Below are positions 23,934 through 36,178 of a DNA stretch of 39,571 nt, in pieces (position 1 is the stretch's first letter; the number at the start of each line of letters is the position of its first letter). The notes beneath the pieces were generated by a model. The model ran no database searches, was not told the DNA's origin, and saw only the letters and a list, made by a program, of their open reading frames with translations. The stretch is from Acidimicrobiia bacterium (GTDB taxonomy: Bacteria; Actinomycetota; Acidimicrobiia; Spongiisociales; ZC4RG35), in NCBI GenBank assembly GCA_025937235.1, contig JAICRU010000023.1:1-39571 (forward strand). Direction: 5' to 3'. A program made the position numbers and the translations under genes.

Positions 23934-23983
23934 GGGGACCCTGATAGAGTCCCCTCCTAGGGGTGCCACCTTTTTTGAGGTGG
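23934..23983 (+). promoter_or_regulatory. Structured leader of the polysaccharide operon
   Basis: GGGGAC (23934-23939) pairs with GTCCCC (23949-23954). The same C-run can instead pair with AGGGG (CCCCT 23951-23955 with 23959-23963). A third stem, CCACCT (23966-23971) with AGGTGG (23978-23983), has a T-rich loop. The first two stems are mutually exclusive. They lie 25-70 bases before the GTG start of the dehydratase gene. A TAGAGT box (23945-23950) with a weak TTTCCG 17 bases upstream overlaps the first stem. Pairings are certain; whether this is an RNA switch or a DNA operator is not. Confidence 0.4.
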
Positions 23984-24007
23984 ATAGATGGTGAGAGGAG
24001 TGTTGCC

Positions 24008-25951
24008 GTGCTGGGCGGAACTATTGGGGGTACCTCACAATCGACGTGGAGAGGATCGATCGTGGCCGCAGCGTCGAGGGTGAGAGCCGACATCCTGTTT
24101 GCGGTGGTGGACCTTTTCGTGGTCGCCTCTGCCTATGGTCTGGCCCTCACCATCAGAATGCTCGATCGGGTGGTCGATCCCAGACTGGAGAATCCCTCCA
24201 CCTTCTTTCGTAATCTGGCGTGGGCGCTCCCAATAATCATGTTGGTGCACCTGATCTACAATGTCTGGGCCGGCGCCTACGGACATGTCTGGGAACATGC
24301 CAGCACGGCGGAGGCATTTCGTGTGGCGGTAGCCAATATCGCGGCGTCCGCCACCCTGCTCCTCATCAGCTTCGCGGCTCGGGAATTCACCGATAGCACT
24401 CCTGTAGTTGTCCCATATTCCGTCATCGTCCTTGGTGGTCTGTTGTCACTATTCGGGATGGGTTTGGTCAGGTTCAGATCGAGACTCTTCTCCTTCAGAC
24501 GAGCCTTGGATGGGCCACCGATACTGGTGGTGGGGTCCAGCCGAGAGGCGGCCTCATTCGCTCGCCAAGCATCGTCGCTGCCCGGTGGCGGTCATGTCGT
24601 CGGCTTCGTTGCCGATGACGAGCTGAGCTTGAAGTCGGGTCGGAAGCTGGCGGGTCTACCGATTCTCGGGACGATCGACCAGATCGGCGAACTTGCGCAG
24701 CGCTTCTCGGCCGACCAGGTGGTGGTGATGGGAAACGACCCCAGCCGGACTCGTGCCGTCGTAGATCGGTGTCTGGACACAGATGTCCGCTTGCGCATCA
24801 TCCCCGAGGCAGAGGATGTGCTCTCGAACAGGTCTTTGACCCTCGACGTACGCGACATCGGTGTCGAGGACATCCTGGTGAGGCCACCGGTACAGACCGA
24901 CCTGGACGCGGCTAGGAACCTGATTCGTGGGCGGCGGGTCCTCGTCACCGGCGCCGGGGGCTCGATCGGCTCCGAGATAGTAAGGCAGATCCTCGCCTTC
25001 GAGCCTGATCATGTCTGGGCTCTCGATCGGGATGAGACGCTGCTTCACGAAGCCAGTCTCCAGTGGGTCGGTCCGATCACCAACATCCTCTGCGACGTCC
25101 GAGATCCGATCAAGCTGGTTCGCTCCATGGAGATGATCCGCCCCGAATTGGTGTTTCACGCCGCGGCCCTCAAACACGTCCCGATGTTGGAGTCGGAACC
25201 GGAGGAGGCCGTTCTCACCAACGTCGTCGGGACCCGGAACGTGATCGAAGCCGGATCCCGGGTTGGGATGCGTCATTTCATCCTCATCTCGACCGACAAG
25301 GCGGTAAATCCGAGCAGTGTGATGGGCGCCAGCAAGAGAATCGCCGAGCTCATGACCCAAGCGGGCAACGATCGCCGCGACGGGTGCATCTACACCGCGG
25401 TCCGCTTCGGCAATGTTCTTGGGAGCCGAGGCAGTGTCGTGCCGACCTTCGTCGAGCAGATCAAGCTGGGTGGTCCTGTCACGGTCACCGACCCCAATAT
25501 GACCAGGTATTTCATGACGGTCGATGAGGCTGTTCAGCTCGTGTTGCATGCCGCCGCTCTTTCGGTCGAGTCGGAAGTGTTCCTCCTCGACATGGGTGAA
25601 CCGGTGAGAATCGTCGATCTCGCCAAGCGCATGATCCGCCTTGGCGGATTGCGTCCGGAGCGGGATATCGAGATCGCCTATACAGGAAAGCGCCCGGGGG
25701 AGAAACTGACCGAGACACTCGCCGTCGGGCCACTCATGGCTACGAGCCACCCCAAGATCCTCGAGGTGAAGTTCGAGGGAATGAAGACTCACACTGTATT
25801 CGAGCTTGTCGCGGCACTCGAGGAAGCCGCACTCGCCGGCAATCGCCAGCGTCTCTATGAATTGCTCGGCTCGTTCGAGGCTGCCCTCTCTGGCATGAGT
25901 GAGGTAGTGGTGGACCTCGAGCTCGAGTCTCGCGATCGCATATGGATCTGA
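24008..25951 (+). CDS. Membrane-bound nucleotide-sugar 4,6-dehydratase (WbpM/FlaA1-CapD type)
   Basis: 647 residues from GTG 24008, chosen because GAGAGGAG lies 7 bases upstream. Four or five N-terminal transmembrane segments (within about 20-150) are followed by a CoA-binding-like domain (ILVVGSSREAASFA) and then the SDR domain from about residue 311 (VLVTGAGGSIGSEIVRQ). The active site shows HAAALKHVPMLE and STDKAVNPSSVMGASKR, where Met replaces the usual catalytic Tyr before Lys, typical of the large WbpM/FlaA1 enzymes. These make 4-keto-6-deoxy-UDP-HexNAc for surface glycans. It heads a rightward operon and overlaps the next gene by 10 bases. The substrate is inferred from the family. Confidence 0.93.
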   Translation: MLGGTIGGTSQSTWRGSIVAAASRVRADILFAVVDLFVVASAYGLALTIRMLDRVVDPRLENPSTFFRNLAWALPIIMLVHLIYNVWAGAYGHVWEHASTAEAFRVAVANIAASATLLLISFAAREFTDSTPVVVPYSVIVLGGLLSLFGMGLVRFRSRLFSFRRALDGPPILVVGSSREAASFARQASSLPGGGHVVGFVADDELSLKSGRKLAGLPILGTIDQIGELAQRFSADQVVVMGNDPSRTRAVVDRCLDTDVRLRIIPEAEDVLSNRSLTLDVRDIGVEDILVRPPVQTDLDAARNLIRGRRVLVTGAGGSIGSEIVRQILAFEPDHVWALDRDETLLHEASLQWVGPITNILCDVRDPIKLVRSMEMIRPELVFHAAALKHVPMLESEPEEAVLTNVVGTRNVIEAGSRVGMRHFILISTDKAVNPSSVMGASKRIAELMTQAGNDRRDGCIYTAVRFGNVLGSRGSVVPTFVEQIKLGGPVTVTDPNMTRYFMTVDEAVQLVLHAAALSVESEVFLLDMGEPVRIVDLAKRMIRLGGLRPERDIEIAYTGKRPGEKLTETLAVGPLMATSHPKILEVKFEGMKTHTVFELVAALEEAALAGNRQRLYELLGSFEAALSGMSEVVVDLELESRDRIWI

Positions 25952-28575
25952 CTCGTCTGATTCGAGTGGTCCGTGATCGGTGGGTCTTCGTACTCGTCGT
26001 GGCTGTTCTCGGCGCCGTGGCAGGATGGGGGCTGACCCACCTGAACAATCAGAACATCGCTCCTCAGTTCCGAGCTATCGCCGCCATCAGTCTCGTGCCG
26101 GAGGAAGGCGAAACAGTTGCGGACCTCGCCGATGAACTGGACACGGCACTAGGAGTTGCAACTGCGGCTGCAGGTGGCATCGCCTCCGCGCAACCGGGGT
26201 CGTCGGTTCAAACCGACCCCCTGACCGGTCGGCTGCTTTTCGTCGCGCAGGGTGGCTCGCCGGAAGAGGCGGAGGGCAATGCGGGGACGCTCCGACAGGC
26301 CTATGTGGAGGTCGATCCGAGCCTCGGAGGCGGGCCTGTCGACGACTCCCTGGCGGATATCGAGCGCCAGGTCGGGGAGCTGCAGGAGCAGCTCAGAGAG
26401 CTACAGCCGCGGCTCACCGCGGATGAGCGCGAACTGGCTGGCGCCCATGAATTGGTCGACCTCAAGATGGACGCCGTTCGTCAGCAGATCGTCGGCCTCA
26501 CCGTGGCCAACGCCGGGGCATCGGAGGATGAACAAATCTCCAACAATGACCAGATCGCCCGGCTTGAGATCGTTCTCGACGAGCTCGAAGCAGAGAAGGC
26601 GGCGCTCGCCCCCCCTCCGACAGAGGAATTGACACCTACCGAGCAGCTTCAAGCCAACACGATCCAGCGAAGACTCGAAGTGTTGGGCATCCAATACGAA
26701 ACGCTTTATCTGCGCAAACTGGGCGTGACTTCCCAAGGGCGATCGGAACCGATCGTGGTCGAGGACCTCACTCCCCAGCCGGCGGGTGTGTTGCTCAATA
26801 CCGCTATCGGCTTCATCGCCGGGATGACCATCGCTGCGTTAGGCCTGATGTTGGTCAACACCGTGCGCAAGGCGGTGTGGCTACCCGCTGATATCCCGGT
26901 GCCGGTGTTGGGGGACATCCCCGGACGAAAGACGGCCAGCGCAGACGGTATTCCTTGGTATGACGCAGAAGAGGACGGGGATCGGAAGGCTGCCATCCAG
27001 GCCCTTCGCACGGCAATCGAGGGCCGTCTCCTCGAGGGCTCTTCCTCTCTTGGTATCGCCGGCACTCTGACCGACCCCGGCGAGGTGCACGCTTTGGCCG
27101 CAGACCTCGGCGCCTCATTTGCGACTGCCGGATGGTCGGTCCTGCTCATCGATGCCGATTTCGAGAATCCATCCGAGCTCTCCGAGTACCAAGTCGAAAG
27201 CACAGATCTGGCCACCCTCCTGGAACTGGACCACCCGGACCTTCTGCTGAGAAAAGAAATTGCCGAGCGTGTCGAGACCGCCGCCGAGATCAGAGACAAT
27301 CTGGCAGTGGTACCGGCCGGCGCTCCTCCCGCTTCTCCGGGGGACGCCGTGGCGGGACGGCATTTCCGTTACTTGATCGAAGAGGCATCGAGCCGGTTCG
27401 ATCTCGTGATGGTGGTTGGATCGGAGATCATGGACCCCGCTACGCAGATACAGATACAGCGGTTGGACGGGGTGCTGGTGGCAGTGTGGCCCGGCAGGTC
27501 GCGTGCGCCTCTCGTCAGTGCAATCGTGCAGGATTTCGACGAGAGGAACCTCAAAATCCATGGTGCCGTCTTCCTACAGACGTCAGGACGCGGGGTCCTA
27601 TCTGCCGTCGGTGCTCCGGATGACTCATCTGACGAAATCCCCGCGGCCGACGCGATCCGCCCGATGATTAGAACAGGGACGGTCGACGTCGCCCCGAGGA
27701 GCCAGGCCAACCAACTGGTCGACCGGCTGGAACGAGAAAGTGAGTCTCCGGCGAGTCCAAACGGGAACAGGACCATCGACGAACTCGGGATTCACCTCCT
27801 CGAGGCGCTGTCGCTGGATCGTCCGGGCGCCTACCACGCCGCCGCCGATTATGTAGTCACCAGAGTCGAGGATCTGCTCACCACCCATGCGGACCCAGGG
27901 ACGGTGATAGAACTCGTCAGCCGGGTCAGTGAGATGGGGTTTATCCCCCTCACCCCGGTCGACGGCCTCCCCAAAGCAGGGAACCTGCTCAGGTATGAGT
28001 TCGAGGCCGAACTGGGCACCATCGTCGGCCCGGTTGTGAGCGACAGGATGGAAGCGGTGTTAGCTGACGGTTCCGGACTCCAGGACGTCGATCTCGACGG
28101 GTGGCTGACACACGAATTCTTCAAGCGACATGTTGAGCAGACGATAGGCGAGCCAGTCGTCTGGCATCTGACCAGCAACAAAGGCTCCATCCAGGTCCTG
28201 GTAGGGGCGCAGCGTCTCGACACCTATAGGCTCGAGCTCCTCGAGAAGGAATTGGTCGCGCCCCGGACCGACGTGTTGAGGCGTGATCTGCACGCGGTGG
28301 AGGCCGCGGGCGACGAGACGAGTTCGGCGCTGTTGCGGGCTGAGCTGGAGGACGTGGAGGAGTTCGGGGCTGCTCTCGAGCTATTGCGCAACCGCACGAC
28401 TCGACCAAATGGGGTCGTTCAGACGGAACAACGCGATCGGTCTGCCACCTCCTGGACGCCGGTCTGGTCGGACGATGTCCGATCCAACCTTGCCTCTGTG
28501 CAGAGGCTTGGTCTCCTTCCGTTTCCCGTTCTCACCAGGAGCGAATTGAGGTCCCGACTTTCGACTGGCTCATAG
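25942..28575 (+). CDS. Wzz-like chain-length protein with degenerate BY-kinase and unusual C-terminus
   Basis: 877 residues in three parts. Part 1 is Wzz-like: a transmembrane segment at about 14-31, a coiled-coil-rich periplasmic region, and a second transmembrane segment at about 283-305 (LLNTAIGFIAGMTIAALGLM). Part 2 (about 340-560) has the BY-kinase fold, with a clear Walker A' (VLLIDADFENP) but no P-loop: the expected GEGKT reads GTLTDPGEVHA. It is probably a pseudokinase that controls polymer length without ATP hydrolysis. Part 3 (about 600-877) is not normal for this family; EPVVWHLTSNKGSIQVLV near 737 and the following helices resemble the C-terminal region of BREX PglX-type methyltransferases. 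No methyltransferase motifs are present. It overlaps the dehydratase gene. Confidence 0.85.
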   Translation: MDLTRLIRVVRDRWVFVLVVAVLGAVAGWGLTHLNNQNIAPQFRAIAAISLVPEEGETVADLADELDTALGVATAAAGGIASAQPGSSVQTDPLTGRLLFVAQGGSPEEAEGNAGTLRQAYVEVDPSLGGGPVDDSLADIERQVGELQEQLRELQPRLTADERELAGAHELVDLKMDAVRQQIVGLTVANAGASEDEQISNNDQIARLEIVLDELEAEKAALAPPPTEELTPTEQLQANTIQRRLEVLGIQYETLYLRKLGVTSQGRSEPIVVEDLTPQPAGVLLNTAIGFIAGMTIAALGLMLVNTVRKAVWLPADIPVPVLGDIPGRKTASADGIPWYDAEEDGDRKAAIQALRTAIEGRLLEGSSSLGIAGTLTDPGEVHALAADLGASFATAGWSVLLIDADFENPSELSEYQVESTDLATLLELDHPDLLLRKEIAERVETAAEIRDNLAVVPAGAPPASPGDAVAGRHFRYLIEEASSRFDLVMVVGSEIMDPATQIQIQRLDGVLVAVWPGRSRAPLVSAIVQDFDERNLKIHGAVFLQTSGRGVLSAVGAPDDSSDEIPAADAIRPMIRTGTVDVAPRSQANQLVDRLERESESPASPNGNRTIDELGIHLLEALSLDRPGAYHAAADYVVTRVEDLLTTHADPGTVIELVSRVSEMGFIPLTPVDGLPKAGNLLRYEFEAELGTIVGPVVSDRMEAVLADGSGLQDVDLDGWLTHEFFKRHVEQTIGEPVVWHLTSNKGSIQVLVGAQRLDTYRLELLEKELVAPRTDVLRRDLHAVEAAGDETSSALLRAELEDVEEFGAALELLRNRTTRPNGVVQTEQRDRSATSWTPVWSDDVRSNLASVQRLGLLPFPVLTRSELRSRLSTGS

Positions 28576-28621: not shown

Positions 28622-29815
28622 ATGAGAATCGCCCACTTGACCACGGTCGACTCGAGCCTGCGTTACCTCGTGTTTCCCCAACTGACAGAGATCGTGGCGC
28701 GGGGTGGCACCGCGATCGGGATCAGCGCACCCGGGCCGGATGTGTCGTTTCTCGTTGCGTCGGGGATCGAGCACCGACCCCTCAGCGCTTCTACCAGATC
28801 GTCGTCGATCGGCTCGGACCTCAGGGCCGCCTGGCAACTATGGCGACTCCTGCGGCGAGAGCACCTCGACGTTCTCCACACCCACAACCCGAAGCCGGGC
28901 ATCTACGGCAGGATCATCGGACGATTGGCCGGTGTCCCCTTAGTGGTCAACACGGTGCATGGCTTCTACGCGACCGAGTCGGACGGCTTTCTCAAGAGGG
29001 CCCTCGTCTACTCGATCGAAGCGATCGCCGCGCTTTTCTCGGATATGGAACTGGTTCAGAGCAGAGAAGACGTCGTCGTCATGGAGCGCTTCCACATCGG
29101 CAGGCGGTCGCGGACTGTTCATCTGGGAAACGGGATCGACCTCGAGAGATTCCGACCCGATCCCGAAGGTGTGATGCGGCAACGAGTTCGTGCTGAGTTG
29201 GGAATCGCTGCTGACAGAATCGTGGTGGGCTTCGTCGGGCGACTGGTCGCGGAAAAGGGCATACCTGAATTGCTCGGTGCCTGGCAGCTGCGAAAAAGTG
29301 ATTACGAACTGCTCGTCTTGGGCCCGCCCGACCCATCCAAAACCGATGCCCTGAGCCAGTCGATGATCGACGAGGCCGAAGCGTCAGGGGTCCAATTCCT
29401 GGGACATCGGGATCATATCGAGGAGCTCTATCCGGCACTGGACATCTTCGTACTCCCTTCACACCGGGAGGGTTTTCCCAGGGCAGCGATGGAGGCAGCC
29501 GCCAGCGGCGTAGCGATCGTGGCTACCGACATTCGTGGCTGTCGGGAGGTCGTGGAGAACGGACTGAACGGGCTCTTGGTCCCGACCGGAGATCCTCTCC
29601 ACCTGACTGCCGCCATCGACCGATTGGTGACCGATCCCGTCACCCGCATCAGCATGGGCGAATATGGCAGGAAGAAGGCTCTTGCCGATTTCGACGAGCG
29701 TGCCGTGGTGAAAAACGTGATCGGGGCTTATCGTGACGCGGCAAGGCGGAAAGGTCTCATGAAGTTGTATGACGCGCTGGCCTCTTCGACGGACGAGATG
29801 AATGGCCGGGACTAG
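28622..29815 (+). CDS. GT4 glycosyltransferase
   Basis: 397-residue GT4 enzyme that adds a sugar to a membrane-linked glycan. The acceptor domain contains HTHNPKPGIYGRIIGRLAGV and NTVHGFYATESDG. The donor domain contains FVGRLVAEKGIPELL and the donor-binding SHREGFPRAAMEAAASGVAI, with ATDIRGCREVVENGLNGLLV. GGAG precedes the ATG by 4 bases. It overlaps the phosphoglycosyl transferase gene by 14 bases, and that pairing suggests it adds the second sugar of the repeat unit. The sugar is not predictable. Confidence 0.93.
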   Translation: MRIAHLTTVDSSLRYLVFPQLTEIVARGGTAIGISAPGPDVSFLVASGIEHRPLSASTRSSSIGSDLRAAWQLWRLLRREHLDVLHTHNPKPGIYGRIIGRLAGVPLVVNTVHGFYATESDGFLKRALVYSIEAIAALFSDMELVQSREDVVVMERFHIGRRSRTVHLGNGIDLERFRPDPEGVMRQRVRAELGIAADRIVVGFVGRLVAEKGIPELLGAWQLRKSDYELLVLGPPDPSKTDALSQSMIDEAEASGVQFLGHRDHIEELYPALDIFVLPSHREGFPRAAMEAAASGVAIVATDIRGCREVVENGLNGLLVPTGDPLHLTAAIDRLVTDPVTRISMGEYGRKKALADFDERAVVKNVIGAYRDAARRKGLMKLYDALASSTDEMNGRD

Positions 29816-30419
29816 CCAGGCACTGAAGCGGGGGTTCGACATTCTCGTGGCCGGTCTTCTGTTGGTCATTCTGGCCATCCCCCTGGTGCTGATTGCGTTG
29901 GCGACAAGGTTGCTCCTCGGGTCGCCAATCCTCTACCGGAGCCTGCGGCCTGGTCTCGGCGGCAACCTGTTCACCATCTACAAATTCCGCACGATGACCC
30001 AGGACGTCGACGAGAACGGGGAACTGCGGCCGGACGCTGAGAGACTCACCAGGTTTGGGCGTCTGCTTCGGTCTTGGAGTCTGGATGAGCTTCCTGAGCT
30101 GATCAACGTGCTGAGGGGCGACATGAGCCTGGTCGGCCCCCGCCCCCTGCTTCCCGCGTACCTCGACAGATATGACGACCAGCAGAGGCGTCGCCATGAG
30201 GTGAGACCGGGGTTGACCGGACTGGCACAGGTGCGAGGCCGCAATTCTCTAAGCTGGGACGAGAGACTGGCCCTCGATGTTTGGTATGTCGACCATCGAT
30301 CCTTCGCCCTGGATCTCAGAATCCTCGCCGCCACCATCGCCCTGGTCGTCAACAGGGAGGGGATCAATGCTCCGGATCATGCCACGATGCCGGAGTTCCG
30401 TGGCCAAGAGGAGACTTGA
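29802..30419 (+). CDS. Initiating sugar (phosphoglycosyl) transferase
   Basis: 205 residues, the short PglC-like core size. It transfers a sugar-phosphate from a UDP-sugar to undecaprenyl phosphate, starting repeat-unit assembly at the inner face of the membrane. One N-terminal re-entrant/membrane helix (FDILVAGLLLVILAIPLVLI) is followed by YKFRTMTQD, SLDELPELINVLRGDMSLVG and RPGLTGLAQVRGRN. Together with the upstream WbpM-type dehydratase, the likely first sugar is a 6-deoxy-HexNAc derivative (inference). The stop overlaps the next start. Confidence 0.95.
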   Translation: MAGTSQALKRGFDILVAGLLLVILAIPLVLIALATRLLLGSPILYRSLRPGLGGNLFTIYKFRTMTQDVDENGELRPDAERLTRFGRLLRSWSLDELPELINVLRGDMSLVGPRPLLPAYLDRYDDQQRRRHEVRPGLTGLAQVRGRNSLSWDERLALDVWYVDHRSFALDLRILAATIALVVNREGINAPDHATMPEFRGQEET

Positions 30420-31375
30420 ACGCCCTCATCTGTTCGGCCGGCCGGCGGACGACACTGGTCCGCGCCTTTCGTCGCGTGCTCGAGCCACGCCGAGGTTTTG
30501 TCGTCGCCGGCGACGTGGACCCACTGGCTCCCGCCCTTTTGACAGCGGACTACTCCGAAATGATGCCGCGGCTCAGCTCACCGGAGTACTCGTCGCGGCT
30601 GCTCGAACTGTGTCAAGAGCGACAGATTGCCTTGGTGGTGCCCACCATCGACACCGAATTGCCGCTGTTGGCCGGTCTGAGTGAAGAGTTCGCTGCCTCC
30701 GGTATCACCGTCCTCGTCTCGGCGATGGAGTTGATCGACATAACATCCGACAAGCGCAAGACCGCAGAGGTCTTCAACGCCCGGGGCATCCGCACGCCGC
30801 GCTCCTGGGCGCCAGGTGATCTGGCGGAGGTACCCGAACTCTTGTTCGTCAAGCCCAATCGAGGAAGCGCCAGCATGGACACCTATCTGGTGCCGGGTGA
30901 TCGGGTGGAGGCGATTCTGCCCATGGTCAACGATCCGGTGGTTCAAGAGTACATCGAGGCGCCCGAAATCACCGTCGACGCACTCCTCGACCTGACTGGC
31001 GACGTGATCCATATGGTTCCGCGCATCCGTCTCAAGACGGTGGGCGGGGAGTCGGTGCAGGGAGTCACCATGCCGGACGAGCCGATACGCCCGTGGCTCC
31101 TCGATGTTCTGCGGGTGATCTCCAGCCTTGGGGGCAGAGGACCGGTGACGATACAGGCGTTCTTGACGCCTGATTCGCCGACGCTGATCGAAGTGAATCC
31201 TCGATTCGGAGGCGGGTTTCCGCTCACGCTCGAGGCCGGCGGCGAGTACCCGAAATGGATCGTGGAGATGATCGAGGGCGGCAGTGTCCCACCGAGGCTT
31301 GGCGAGTATCGCAGAGGTCTGTTCATGACACGAACGCTCGAGGAGACCTACGTCGACGGTGGCTGGGCTCAATGA
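30416..31375 (+). CDS. ATP-grasp protein, CarB-like
   Basis: 319 residues from TTG 30416, chosen because GAGGAG lies 2-3 bases upstream and it overlaps the previous stop. The N-terminal pre-ATP-grasp domain (LICSAGRRTTLVRAFRRVL) is followed by VVPTIDTELPLLA. The ATP-grasp domain has ELLFVKPNRGSASMDTYLV and the metal-binding LIEVNPRFGGGFPLTLEAGG. Relatives in surface-glycan loci are often called carbamoyl-phosphate-synthase-large-subunit-like and probably make an amide or peptide bond on a sugar or its precursor. The substrate is unknown. It overlaps the HAD gene as ATGA. Confidence 0.88.
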   Translation: MNALICSAGRRTTLVRAFRRVLEPRRGFVVAGDVDPLAPALLTADYSEMMPRLSSPEYSSRLLELCQERQIALVVPTIDTELPLLAGLSEEFAASGITVLVSAMELIDITSDKRKTAEVFNARGIRTPRSWAPGDLAEVPELLFVKPNRGSASMDTYLVPGDRVEAILPMVNDPVVQEYIEAPEITVDALLDLTGDVIHMVPRIRLKTVGGESVQGVTMPDEPIRPWLLDVLRVISSLGGRGPVTIQAFLTPDSPTLIEVNPRFGGGFPLTLEAGGEYPKWIVEMIEGGSVPPRLGEYRRGLFMTRTLEETYVDGGWAQ

Positions 31376-32055
31376 TCAGAGCGATCGTGCTCGACCTCGA
31401 CGACACCTTGTACCTGGAGCGCGATTACGTCAGGAGCGGGTTCATTCATGTGGCGTCGTACCTCGAAGATCGTGGGCTGGCCGACTCGGCCGAGGTCTTC
31501 TCCTTTCTCTGGGCCGGTTTCGAAGAGGGACGCCGAGGCGATGCGTTCGATTCGCTGCTTCTGCGATGGCCACAGATCGGCCGCGTGGAGAATGTCGAAG
31601 CGCTCGTCGAGCGCTATCGTCAGCATTCTCCCAACATCGAGCTCAGGGAGCCGGCTGCGTTTGCCGATCTCATGAATCTCGATCTCCGTGTTGGCCTGAT
31701 CTCGGATGGGTGGCCAACCGCCCAACGTGCCAAGCTCGATGCGCTGGGCGTCGAGGATTCCTTTGGATCGACGGTGCTGACCGGCGATTGGGGTGGCCGC
31801 TACGCCAAACCACACCAGCGCGCATTCACCACGATCGAGCAGGAGTTCTCGCTCTCCAGTTCGGAGCTGGTCTATGTGGCCGACAACCCGACCAAGGACT
31901 TCATCGCCCCAAATGAGCGTGGTTGGCTGACTTGGCGCATCCGGATGCCGGGTCAGCTCCATCACGCCCTGGAGCCCACTGGCAACATCGCCTCGCCACG
32001 GCTGGAACTGCCATCTCTGCAGGAGGTAGTCGCCGAATATCAGGCGGGGAGCTGA
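31372..32055 (+). CDS. HAD-superfamily hydrolase
   Basis: 227 residues from ATG 31372. Motif I is VLDLDDTLY with both catalytic aspartates. The motif II region is LISDGWPTAQRAKLDALG, the motif III lysine lies in RYAKPHQRAF, and motif IV is VYVADNPTKDF. A helical C1 cap lies between motifs I and II. It is probably a phosphatase for a sugar phosphate or the product of its ATP-grasp neighbour; the two genes overlap and commonly travel together in surface-polysaccharide loci. It is the last gene of this rightward run before a 282-base gap. Confidence 0.9.
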   Translation: MIRAIVLDLDDTLYLERDYVRSGFIHVASYLEDRGLADSAEVFSFLWAGFEEGRRGDAFDSLLLRWPQIGRVENVEALVERYRQHSPNIELREPAAFADLMNLDLRVGLISDGWPTAQRAKLDALGVEDSFGSTVLTGDWGGRYAKPHQRAFTTIEQEFSLSSSELVYVADNPTKDFIAPNERGWLTWRIRMPGQLHHALEPTGNIASPRLELPSLQEVVAEYQAGS

Positions 32056-33743: not shown

Positions 33744-34763
33744 CTATGAAGCACTGGGCGGTATGGCATCATCGAGCAGAGCCGTCAGCTCGGCGGCTGC
33801 ATCGGGTTTGAGATGGGCCGGGTCCCGAAAGTCTTCCGTTGAGAACAGGTCCTGTGCATCGACATAGATCGCGCCGGACTCCCTGGCCGTCGTCTCGAGC
33901 AGACGATCGAATGTGGCCATGTCTCGACTCGGGTCTGGCAGGTAATCGGCGAAGTCGTCACTGACCGGCATATTGACGACTACCGCGTTCACTTCGTCCT
34001 CCGCCAGCTCGCTCAGCAGACGGCGCATCGCTTCCAGCTCAGGACCTCCCATCGAGAAGCTGTTGACCTGGCGGGCCACCCACGGTTGACCCCAAGCGGC
34101 CGAGTTGTCGTAGGGCTCACCGTCGTAGGTCCGGTCCGATCCGAACGGGCCCGGTTCGGGGGAATCCAGGTCGGGCTGGTCGTCGGTTCCCACCGCTGCG
34201 GCTAAGAGTCGAGCCGGGTCGCGCAGCAGGGGACGGAGTCGGACGATGGCGACATGACGAAACAGCCAATTCTCGACCCATTCGAGAGCGTTCCGCGGAG
34301 TGCGGGCCATCAGCATCCCGGGGGAGCCCGACAGCCTGTCGAAGAAGTCGTTTTGGGAGATCCCCCCATCATTCAGGTCTCTTGGGGTGACTCCAACCAC
34401 GATTGTGTCCGCGTTGGTGAGTGGAAGCACCACATCCACCACGAATCGCTCCAACGATCGCATCGAGGCGGCACCTAGAGCGGCGTTGTAGGAGATCCGA
34501 TCCGATCCTGAGTTGAAAGTCACAGGATCCATGCCCTCTTCCACCACCGAGGAGCCGACGAAAACCACGTCGATTTGCTCTCCCTCAGAGACCAAATCTT
34601 CCATTTGGGCCATCTTGGCCGAGATCTGCGATGTGGGCCATCGCTCGAGCGGGGGGAGCTGATCCTCGGTCGCCCTCAGTGCCAGTTCGAAGGCGATGAT
34701 GAGAATCAGCGCGAGGAGTGCCGCCAGCCGAACCCGCCTGATGGTTGTTTCGTGGTGCAGCAT
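33744..34763 (-). CDS. SGNH-like partner of the MBOAT acyltransferase
   Basis: 339 residues with one N-terminal membrane anchor (LAALLALILIIAFELALRA). It has SGNH-hydrolase features: the block I-like VVFVGSSVVEEGMDP, and a terminal DPAHLKPDAAAELT with the Asp-x-x-His arrangement of the catalytic pair. This architecture resembles DltD/AlgX/AlgJ-type proteins that receive acyl groups from an MBOAT and pass them to an exported polymer. The ATG overlaps the MBOAT stop (TGATG), so the two are coupled. It ends the leftward operon. I infer O-acetylation of the exopolysaccharide. Confidence 0.75.
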   Translation of the reverse strand: MLHHETTIRRVRLAALLALILIIAFELALRATEDQLPPLERWPTSQISAKMAQMEDLVSEGEQIDVVFVGSSVVEEGMDPVTFNSGSDRISYNAALGAASMRSLERFVVDVVLPLTNADTIVVGVTPRDLNDGGISQNDFFDRLSGSPGMLMARTPRNALEWVENWLFRHVAIVRLRPLLRDPARLLAAAVGTDDQPDLDSPEPGPFGSDRTYDGEPYDNSAAWGQPWVARQVNSFSMGGPELEAMRRLLSELAEDEVNAVVVNMPVSDDFADYLPDPSRDMATFDRLLETTARESGAIYVDAQDLFSTEDFRDPAHLKPDAAAELTALLDDAIPPSAS

Positions 34764-36178
34764 CAGAACTGGAAATAGATGAACGGGATCATGGGGCCGC
34801 CGGAGAAGATCAGGACGCCGAGGAAGAACGTCGCGTAGACGAGGCCCTGATACGCAGGTTTCCAGGTGAGTATCACGTCATGGTCGTCAGAATTCCGCTG
34901 GGCCAAGTCGATGAGAAACACGAGGAGGGCAGCTGGTACGAACAGCAGCACCCACGAGATGGGCGGAAGACCCGGCTGCAGCGCAAAGATTCCGGTGAGA
35001 TAGTCCCAGGCCGAAGCGACACTCGGGGCACGGAAGAAGACCCAGGCCACGCATACGAGGTTGAAGGTGAGGAGCGTCCTCAGCCCGTCACGCCGCAGAG
35101 AGAACTCACCTTGATACCCCCGCGGTGAGTAATGACCCGTTACGCGGTGCACGATCAGGAACAGGCCATGCAAGGCGCCCCAAATGACAAAGGTCCAGGC
35201 GGCGCCGTGCCAAAGGCCCCCGAGCAACATCACGATCATCAGATTCAGATACGTCCGTCTCGGTCCCTTGCGATTCCCTCCCAGGGGGACGTACAGGTAA
35301 TCGTGGAGCCAGCTCGACAGCGATATATGCCAGGTGCGCCAGAACTCGGTGATGTTCCTGGACAGATAGGGCTGTTCGAAATTTCGCATCAGCTCGATGT
35401 CGAGCAGGCGCGATGTTCCCCGGCCGATGTCGGTATAGCCCGAGAAATCCCCGTAGATCTGCAGTGCGAAGGCGAACACGCCCACGACCAGGGCCAAGGA
35501 GGACTGGGATGAGGGGTCGGCGAATGCAGCATCGACGATGGGCGCCATCACGTCGGCTATGGCGACCTTCTTGAACAGACCGAGCCCAATAAGCACGAGC
35601 CCCGATGCGATCCTTTCCCCTGAAGGAAACTGTCGGTGAGCCTCTATCTGGGGGAGCAGTCGTCCGGCTCGCTCGATCGGGCCGGCTACGAGCTGCGGGA
35701 AGTACGAGACGAAGAGAGCGAAGGTGAGCAGGCTGCGCGATGCGGGAATCCGTCTCCGGTACACGTCGATGGTGTACGACATCGTCTGGAAGGTGTAGAA
35801 GGAGATGCCCACCGGGAGAATGATGTTGAGCAGTGGGGGATTTGCCTCCACCCCGATCGAGGTCAACAGAGCGGTGGCCGACTCCACGAAGAAGCCCCAG
35901 TACTTGAAGAAACCGAGGATCCCGAGCTGGACCACGATGCTGACCAGGAGGATCTGCTTTCTCCGACGCTCGATGGGCGACGTGTCGATGGCTCTCGCTG
36001 CGAAGTAGTCGACCAGGGTGGAGAACGCGAGGAGGCTGAGGAATCTGGGGTCCCACCAACCATAGAACAAGTACGAGGCGGCCAGGAGGAAGACCAGGCG
36101 TCCTCGATGCGGCAGCAACCAGTGCACCACGAAGACAACAGGCAGGAAGATGGCGAATTCGAGTGAGTTGAAGACCAT
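34763..36178 (-). CDS. MBOAT-family O-acyltransferase (AlgI-like)
   Basis: 471 residues with about 10-12 membrane segments, transferring acyl groups across the membrane onto a surface polymer. The N-terminus MVFNSLEFAIFLPVVFVVHW is characteristic of AlgI/PatA/DltB relatives. The active-site histidine lies in LLGGLWHGAAWTFVIWGALH, and the conserved EFWRTWHISLSSWLHDYLYV and C-terminal PFIYFQF are present. It is 26 bases downstream of the polytopic protein gene and coupled to the SGNH-like partner. Confidence 0.95.
   Translation of the reverse strand: MVFNSLEFAIFLPVVFVVHWLLPHRGRLVFLLAASYLFYGWWDPRFLSLLAFSTLVDYFAARAIDTSPIERRRKQILLVSIVVQLGILGFFKYWGFFVESATALLTSIGVEANPPLLNIILPVGISFYTFQTMSYTIDVYRRRIPASRSLLTFALFVSYFPQLVAGPIERAGRLLPQIEAHRQFPSGERIASGLVLIGLGLFKKVAIADVMAPIVDAAFADPSSQSSLALVVGVFAFALQIYGDFSGYTDIGRGTSRLLDIELMRNFEQPYLSRNITEFWRTWHISLSSWLHDYLYVPLGGNRKGPRRTYLNLMIVMLLGGLWHGAAWTFVIWGALHGLFLIVHRVTGHYSPRGYQGEFSLRRDGLRTLLTFNLVCVAWVFFRAPSVASAWDYLTGIFALQPGLPPISWVLLFVPAALLVFLIDLAQRNSDDHDVILTWKPAYQGLVYATFFLGVLIFSGGPMIPFIYFQF

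Follow-up and report, generated by a model that had tools for sequence, protein, structure and literature searches.

The window, i.e. the whole 39,571-nucleotide stretch of Acidimicrobiia DNA analysed here, encodes a protein in which a Wzz-type polysaccharide co-polymerase, a membrane protein with a part in determining how long exported sugar chains become, and a BY-kinase fold without Walker A are followed by a C-terminal tail that is, with practical certainty, homologous to the C-terminal domain of PglX/BrxX, the DNA methyltransferase of BREX phage defence. The literature search returned no paper joining PglX/BrxX with co-polymerases, and a 2026 BREX survey does not contain this fusion; in the literature searched, the parts are known and their combination, in which a PglX-derived tail is attached to a pseudokinase PCP-2a co-polymerase, is new.

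Architecture of the fused protein

The protein is encoded by a single intact ORF of 877 aa, with no internal stop. Its parts and main neighbours are the following.

23963 to 25951 (+): CapD/FlaA1-like nucleotide-sugar dehydratase, upstream, with a 10-bp overlap with the co-polymerase gene
25942 to 28575 (+): complete ORF, Wzz-type polysaccharide co-polymerase, BY pseudokinase and PglX C-terminal-like tail
25942 to 26880 (+): Wzz/PCP part with cytoplasmic N-terminus, residues 1 to about 313 (weak Pfam Wzz match, Kyte-Doolittle)
26983 to 27576 (+): pseudokinase with a BY-kinase fold but no Walker A, residues about 348 to 545 (NCBIfam TIGR01007)
27577 to 27753 (+): variable linker, residues about 546 to 604 (poorly conserved in the alignment; dN/dS of 0.535 in the G005/G021 counterpart)
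27754 to 28572 (+): tail, homologue of the PglX/BrxX C-terminal domain, residues 605 to 877 (about 270 residues)
28153 to 28203 (+): PVVWHLTSNKGSIQVLV, P738 to V754, counterpart of PglX 'PIYWLFSS...FECLV' (BrxX 1079-1096)
28462 to 28521 (+): VWSDDVRSNLASVQRLGLLP, V841 to P860, counterpart of PglX DLDDGVRLNIRPFVEAGVL
28622 to 29815 (+): glycosyltransferase family 4 (Pfam)
29802 to 30419 (+): bacterial sugar transferase (initiating glycosyl-phosphate transferase; PF02397, 6.2e-61)

A periplasmic, Wzz-like region lies between two hydrophobic segments, at about residues 14-34 and 282-308 (Kyte-Doolittle maxima at 14 and 287). The Pfam Wzz model matches the ORF at 0.0075, under its curated cut-off, and a relative (L022) at 0.0003. 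As for the kinase part, TIGR01007 matches residues 354-544 (E = 3e-11) and the Walker A-prime motif 'LLIDAD' is retained. A motif search for Walker A (GxxxxGK[ST]) found none in the window protein, nor was it present in the seven tailed and four untailed relatives examined; a C-terminal tyrosine cluster is also missing from the window protein, its last tyrosine being Y762. Both marks of an active BY-kinase are absent, and kinase activity is judged unlikely from the sequence. No methyltransferase model of Pfam matches the 877-aa protein, such models being matched by the L028 PglX, and the N6-adenine domain of PglX/BrxX, with its GxG and NPPY motifs, was not found.

A sequence-only reading of the window had described Wzz and degenerate BY-kinase parts ahead of a PglX-like tail, which it recognised by two phrases. 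Both parts were recovered and both phrases are present, as PVVWHLTSNKGSIQVLV and VWSDDVRSNLASVQRLGLLP, within a PglX-like domain extending beyond them, over about residues 605-877.

Homology of the tail to PglX

No Pfam model exists for the tail. Searched alone, it matches NF033454 (BREX-5 PglX, E = 2.1e-6) and NF033452 (BREX-1 PglX, 0.0035) in NCBIfam, and eight PglX models in PADLOC, the best with E = 2.3e-6; the tails of homologous fusions match PglX models better (2.2e-15 for G021, 4.5e-15 for G007). Using hhalign, the tails were aligned to the C-termini of seven actinobacterial PglX with a probability of 99.8% (E = 2e-28) over 195 columns, which leaves little of the tail uncovered and takes in the end motif EQPxGWxPDxxxGxRxN common to PglX and the closest tails, vs. 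0.1% for an unrelated co-polymerase profile used as negative control. Run on whole genomes sampled from the phylum, the tail profile also retrieves genuine PglX (E down to 4.9e-33), a plain tblastn with one tail leads to records annotated as BREX-1 PglX and N-6 DNA methylase, and the annotated matches on plasmids are PglX-like methylases only.

Concerning the PDB sequences, phmmer with the window tail gave no PglX (best match an unrelated enzyme, 0.48) and the tail profile reached PglX at 0.024 only, so that the structural link rests on the fold comparison and the other profiles. Searching PHROGs with the tail gave nothing significant. A weak profile match in G643, a PEP carboxylase by its sequence, was discarded as spurious.

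Both the sequence profile and the fold of the tail are those of the PglX C-terminal domain. The PglX-like tail first proposed from the letters alone was thus borne out by NCBIfam, PADLOC, hhalign and the fold search, and neither of the outcomes named as refuting it, i.e. a lack of PglX similarity or a match to a known co-polymerase domain, was observed.

Predicted structure of the tail

An AlphaFold2 model of the tail built from eight input sequences, three of them PglX, reached a pTM of 0.80 and matched PglX/BrxX only. Since the PglX rows might steer the model, the prediction was repeated from the window sequence and the tails of four other co-polymerases, giving a pTM of 0.77. With this PglX-free model, the only significant Foldseek matches in the PDB were six PglX/BrxX chains (1.5e-6 to 2.4e-5; next match 1.0), and a second structure aligner gave a Z of 18.8 over 234 residues (BrxX 862-1200), the next fold scoring 7.3. 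A structure search of BFVD with the tail found no significant match.

The homologous parts comprise the end of the helical spacer, a three-stranded winged-helix-like unit, a two-helix coiled coil and a C-terminal cap. According to the model, the tail corresponds to the whole C-terminal domain beyond the target-recognition domain, i.e. more than its last phrase. In PglX, this region has been assigned a winged helix(-like unit) and a coiled coil (PMC12839542); it was described as conserved, without a known function, and as a possible surface for contacts with BREX partners (PMC11341690). The BrxX region holds a metal site and a DNA-contacting positive groove, and in 2025 structure searches found for it no significant homology outside Type I BREX (PMC11842806).

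Residue conservation

The mapping of residues relies on a single MAFFT alignment, in which the sequences are distant from one another; PglX positions are given in BrxX numbering. The tail has the same fold as PglX/BrxX (8c45, 9ewz, 8zek) over about 230 residues (BrxX about 862-1200) and shares the core residues H1071, P1079, W1082, V1096, G1179 and N1183; in window numbering, the fold-core residues common to the tails and PglX include H730, P738, W741 and V754. Relative to a PglX set omitting four divergent rows, most tails no longer have the PglX near-invariants D999, R1078, H1099, Y1113 and D1178, while G680, R781, A851, Q854, L864 and E868 are invariant in the fused tails and rare in PglX. 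The divergence from PglX has been directed in this sense. R1078 is found in 18 of 22 PglX rows and in none of the ten tails. In the window, K1076/K1077/R1078, just before PVVWHLTSNKGSIQVLV, have become I/G/E (K1076 and K1077 are mostly replaced across the tails), and the metal ligands D997, D999, D1012 and Y1113 have become S, M, P and L, none of the four being kept there; D997 and D999 are both retained in the G017 tail only. The net charge is -12 over the core of the window tail and +6 in the G007 and G100 tails. As the tails and PglX do not differ in this respect (p = 0.76), net charge was not used as evidence, and a loss of DNA binding is argued from particular residues only. The window protein also differs from PglX/BrxX in having neither methyltransferase nor target-recognition domain and in being membrane-anchored, as part of a polysaccharide protein.

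Gene context

The CapD/FlaA1-like gene has the same order in relatives, its homologues cluster together, and its L020 counterpart matches PF02719 (1e-101). Judged by gene content, the sugar-nucleotide, glycosyltransferase, sugar-transferase and acyltransferase genes around the fusion form an exopolysaccharide locus, the PF02397 gene, the glycosyltransferases, the CapD-like gene and an MBOAT gene pointing to a probable Wzx/Wzy-type system. Further along, still within this locus, lie a PylC-like ATP-grasp gene (30281-31375, +) and, after it, a HAD-family hydrolase gene (31255-32055, +). At 33744-36178 (-), the MBOAT O-acyltransferase adjoins a DltD/SGNH-like protein, probably as a polysaccharide acylation pair. 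In several relatives, the next gene after the co-polymerase encodes a polysaccharide deacetylase, which is not adjacent in the window.

Distribution and origin of the fusion

All 138 genomes of the order were scanned, the class and phylum being only sampled; the assemblies are largely drafts, several of them incomplete (G007, 84%; G100, 78%). The full fusion was found in 9 of the 138 genomes, from eight genera and two families: the window genome, G005, G007, G010, G013, G015, G017 and G021 in one family, and G100 in another. Other Wzz proteins with this tail, for which the sequence-only reading had suggested a survey, therefore exist. The tails are intact in the nine assemblies, with invariant residues and roughly 25-40% identity to that of the window. 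In a tenth tail-bearing genome, G020, the domain lies in a separate protein of 460 aa (L027:9757-11139, -), which has a long low-complexity N-terminus and the PglX-like domain only, Wzz, kinase and methyltransferase parts all being absent. Close to its gene lies one for a DeoC/LacD-family aldolase.

Several genomes of the order encode co-polymerases of this family that have no tail. Where their surroundings were seen, the gene order is similar, and the ones examined lack Walker A as well, which indicates that kinase loss is independent of the tail and that the tail is not needed in every such system. G098 has two diverged untailed co-polymerase/pseudokinase paralogues (L032:3048-5156, + and L029:4301-6340, +).

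In the tail tree, the tails group together in a single clade that is separate from PglX (97/91), and the co-polymerase tree is compatible with a single gain (p-AU 0.359), a scenario that is not rejected, nor demonstrated. The domain was probably captured from PglX once; as the tail tree is unrooted, we infer the direction of transfer, from PglX to the co-polymerase, from the wide occurrence of PglX. A scan of genome contigs with the full window protein gave no match, and one with the tail alignment gave four, all from the same family; the homologues in named records are Acidimicrobiia MAGs. On viral contigs no fused tail was found, only PglX.

PglZ, the sole BREX gene sought, was found in none of the ten tail-bearing genomes, the same search finding two in the PglX-bearing G035. 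Each tail-bearing genome has one tail-profile match, meaning that no PglX was found there. The window protein is not a PglX, having no methyltransferase, and the PglZ search gives no sign of BREX membership. With PglX residues mostly lost, new invariants in the tails and no PglZ in ten genomes, the domain appears to have left BREX, and its domestication away from BREX and DNA methylation is considered likely.

Alternative explanations

A chance likeness between helical, charged sequences could in principle produce a resemblance to PglX, the tail being mostly helical and long helices scoring middling in fold comparisons. The E-values from several independent sources (NCBIfam, PADLOC, the fusion tails), the hhalign result against its control and the Z obtained with no PglX in the alignment, far above that of the next fold, refute it in practice. 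The tail might also be a tolerated, passive relic of fusion, without function. Its patchy presence and the existence of untailed co-polymerases of the same family would fit such a relic, for which a dN/dS near 1 is predicted; between G005 and G021, the one pair of sister species used, dN/dS was 0.077 in the tail, 0.106 in the pseudokinase, 0.274 in the Wzz part and 0.535 in the linker. The tail is thus the most constrained part of the protein, which argues against a relic, as do its intact state and invariant residues in nine assemblies and its confident, compact predicted fold. A functional tail is very probable and a relic highly improbable.

Two further readings keep the tail closer to its origin. 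It may still bind DNA non-specifically, the co-polymerase acting as a membrane anchor or sensor coupling chromosomal or phage DNA to capsule or EPS production. The fold that carries the positive groove (PMC11842806) and the winged-helix-like unit (PMC12839542) in PglX is kept, and some tails, those of G007 and G100, have a net positive charge; R1078 is nevertheless gone from every tail, few tails keep K1076/K1077, that of the window is negative over its core, and the neighbours are polysaccharide genes in genomes without detected PglZ. DNA binding by the tail is, on its sequence, less likely because the contact residues are lost, and the anchor or sensor as a whole seems unlikely. Alternatively, the fused protein might serve in phage defence as a BREX-like component, its tail docking defence proteins at the membrane. 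The domain does originate in a defence enzyme, and its conservation in PglX suggested a surface for BREX partners (PMC11341690), but neither PglZ nor PglX was found in the tail-bearing genomes, and the loci contain sugar-nucleotide, glycosyltransferase and acyltransferase genes instead of defence genes, making such a role very unlikely.

Possible role of the tail

The window protein resembles Wzc-type PCP-2a proteins in its two membrane-spanning segments, Wzz-like part, C-terminal BY-kinase fold and EPS locus, and differs from them in having a PglX-derived domain in place of Walker A and a tyrosine-rich tail. In Wzc, that tail, which inserts into the adjacent kinase, sets the stability of the octamer, and its phosphorylation drives disassembly (PMC11986026). 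For the BY pseudokinase EcpK, a scaffold role towards a PCP that does not depend on phosphorylation was proposed; EcpK/HfsB, which belong to phosphorylation-independent PCP-2 systems, likewise have a kinase fold without catalytic motifs (PMC12004946). EcpK, however, is a protein of its own with a basic helix at its end, whereas the window pseudokinase shares one polypeptide with the co-polymerase and is continued by a PglX-type domain. Another fusion was observed in G127 (L085:610-3156, -), where a co-polymerase/pseudokinase of the same family carries an extra C-terminal cytoplasmic domain that is not PglX-like, but a polysaccharide deacetylase (PF01522, 1.4e-24).

By analogy with these systems, the PglX-derived domain would replace the tyrosine-rich regulatory tail at the C-terminus of a pseudokinase co-polymerase. 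Placed by topology in the cytoplasm below the co-polymerase ring, it may work as a protein-protein interaction module domesticated from PglX; of the readings considered, we hold its being such a module within the polysaccharide machine to be the most likely, though still an evenly balanced proposition. It might stabilise or gate the assembly of the ring around Wzy, with binding and release taking the place that tyrosine phosphorylation has in Wzc, although control of ring assembly is rated as a somewhat doubtful option. Recruitment of cytosolic glycan enzymes to the ring is doubtful to a greater degree, even if it gains a little from the deacetylase fused at the same C-terminal site in G127. 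The overall proposal, a regulatory tail of a phosphorylation-independent co-polymerase serving as a ring-assembly switch or as a DNA- or phage-signal sensor for capsule, is tentative, with our confidence falling slightly on the negative side. As for the shared scaffold domain suggested at the outset, the profiles, the structure and the survey agree that the tail domain is common to PglX and co-polymerases, and the label 'scaffold' is plausible.

A piece of defence machinery thus appears to have been put to a new use, and its conserved copy in a co-polymerase, in genomes without detectable PglZ, indicates that the PglX domain can work apart from methylation. The two settings amount to a natural dissection of the domain: residues kept in both are likely structural, and the lost ones are candidates for BREX-specific functions. 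The fusion also suggests, in a form open to testing, how pseudokinase co-polymerases may be controlled when tyrosine phosphorylation is lacking. If the tail is indeed regulatory, the PglX C-terminal domain would be an autonomous interaction module.
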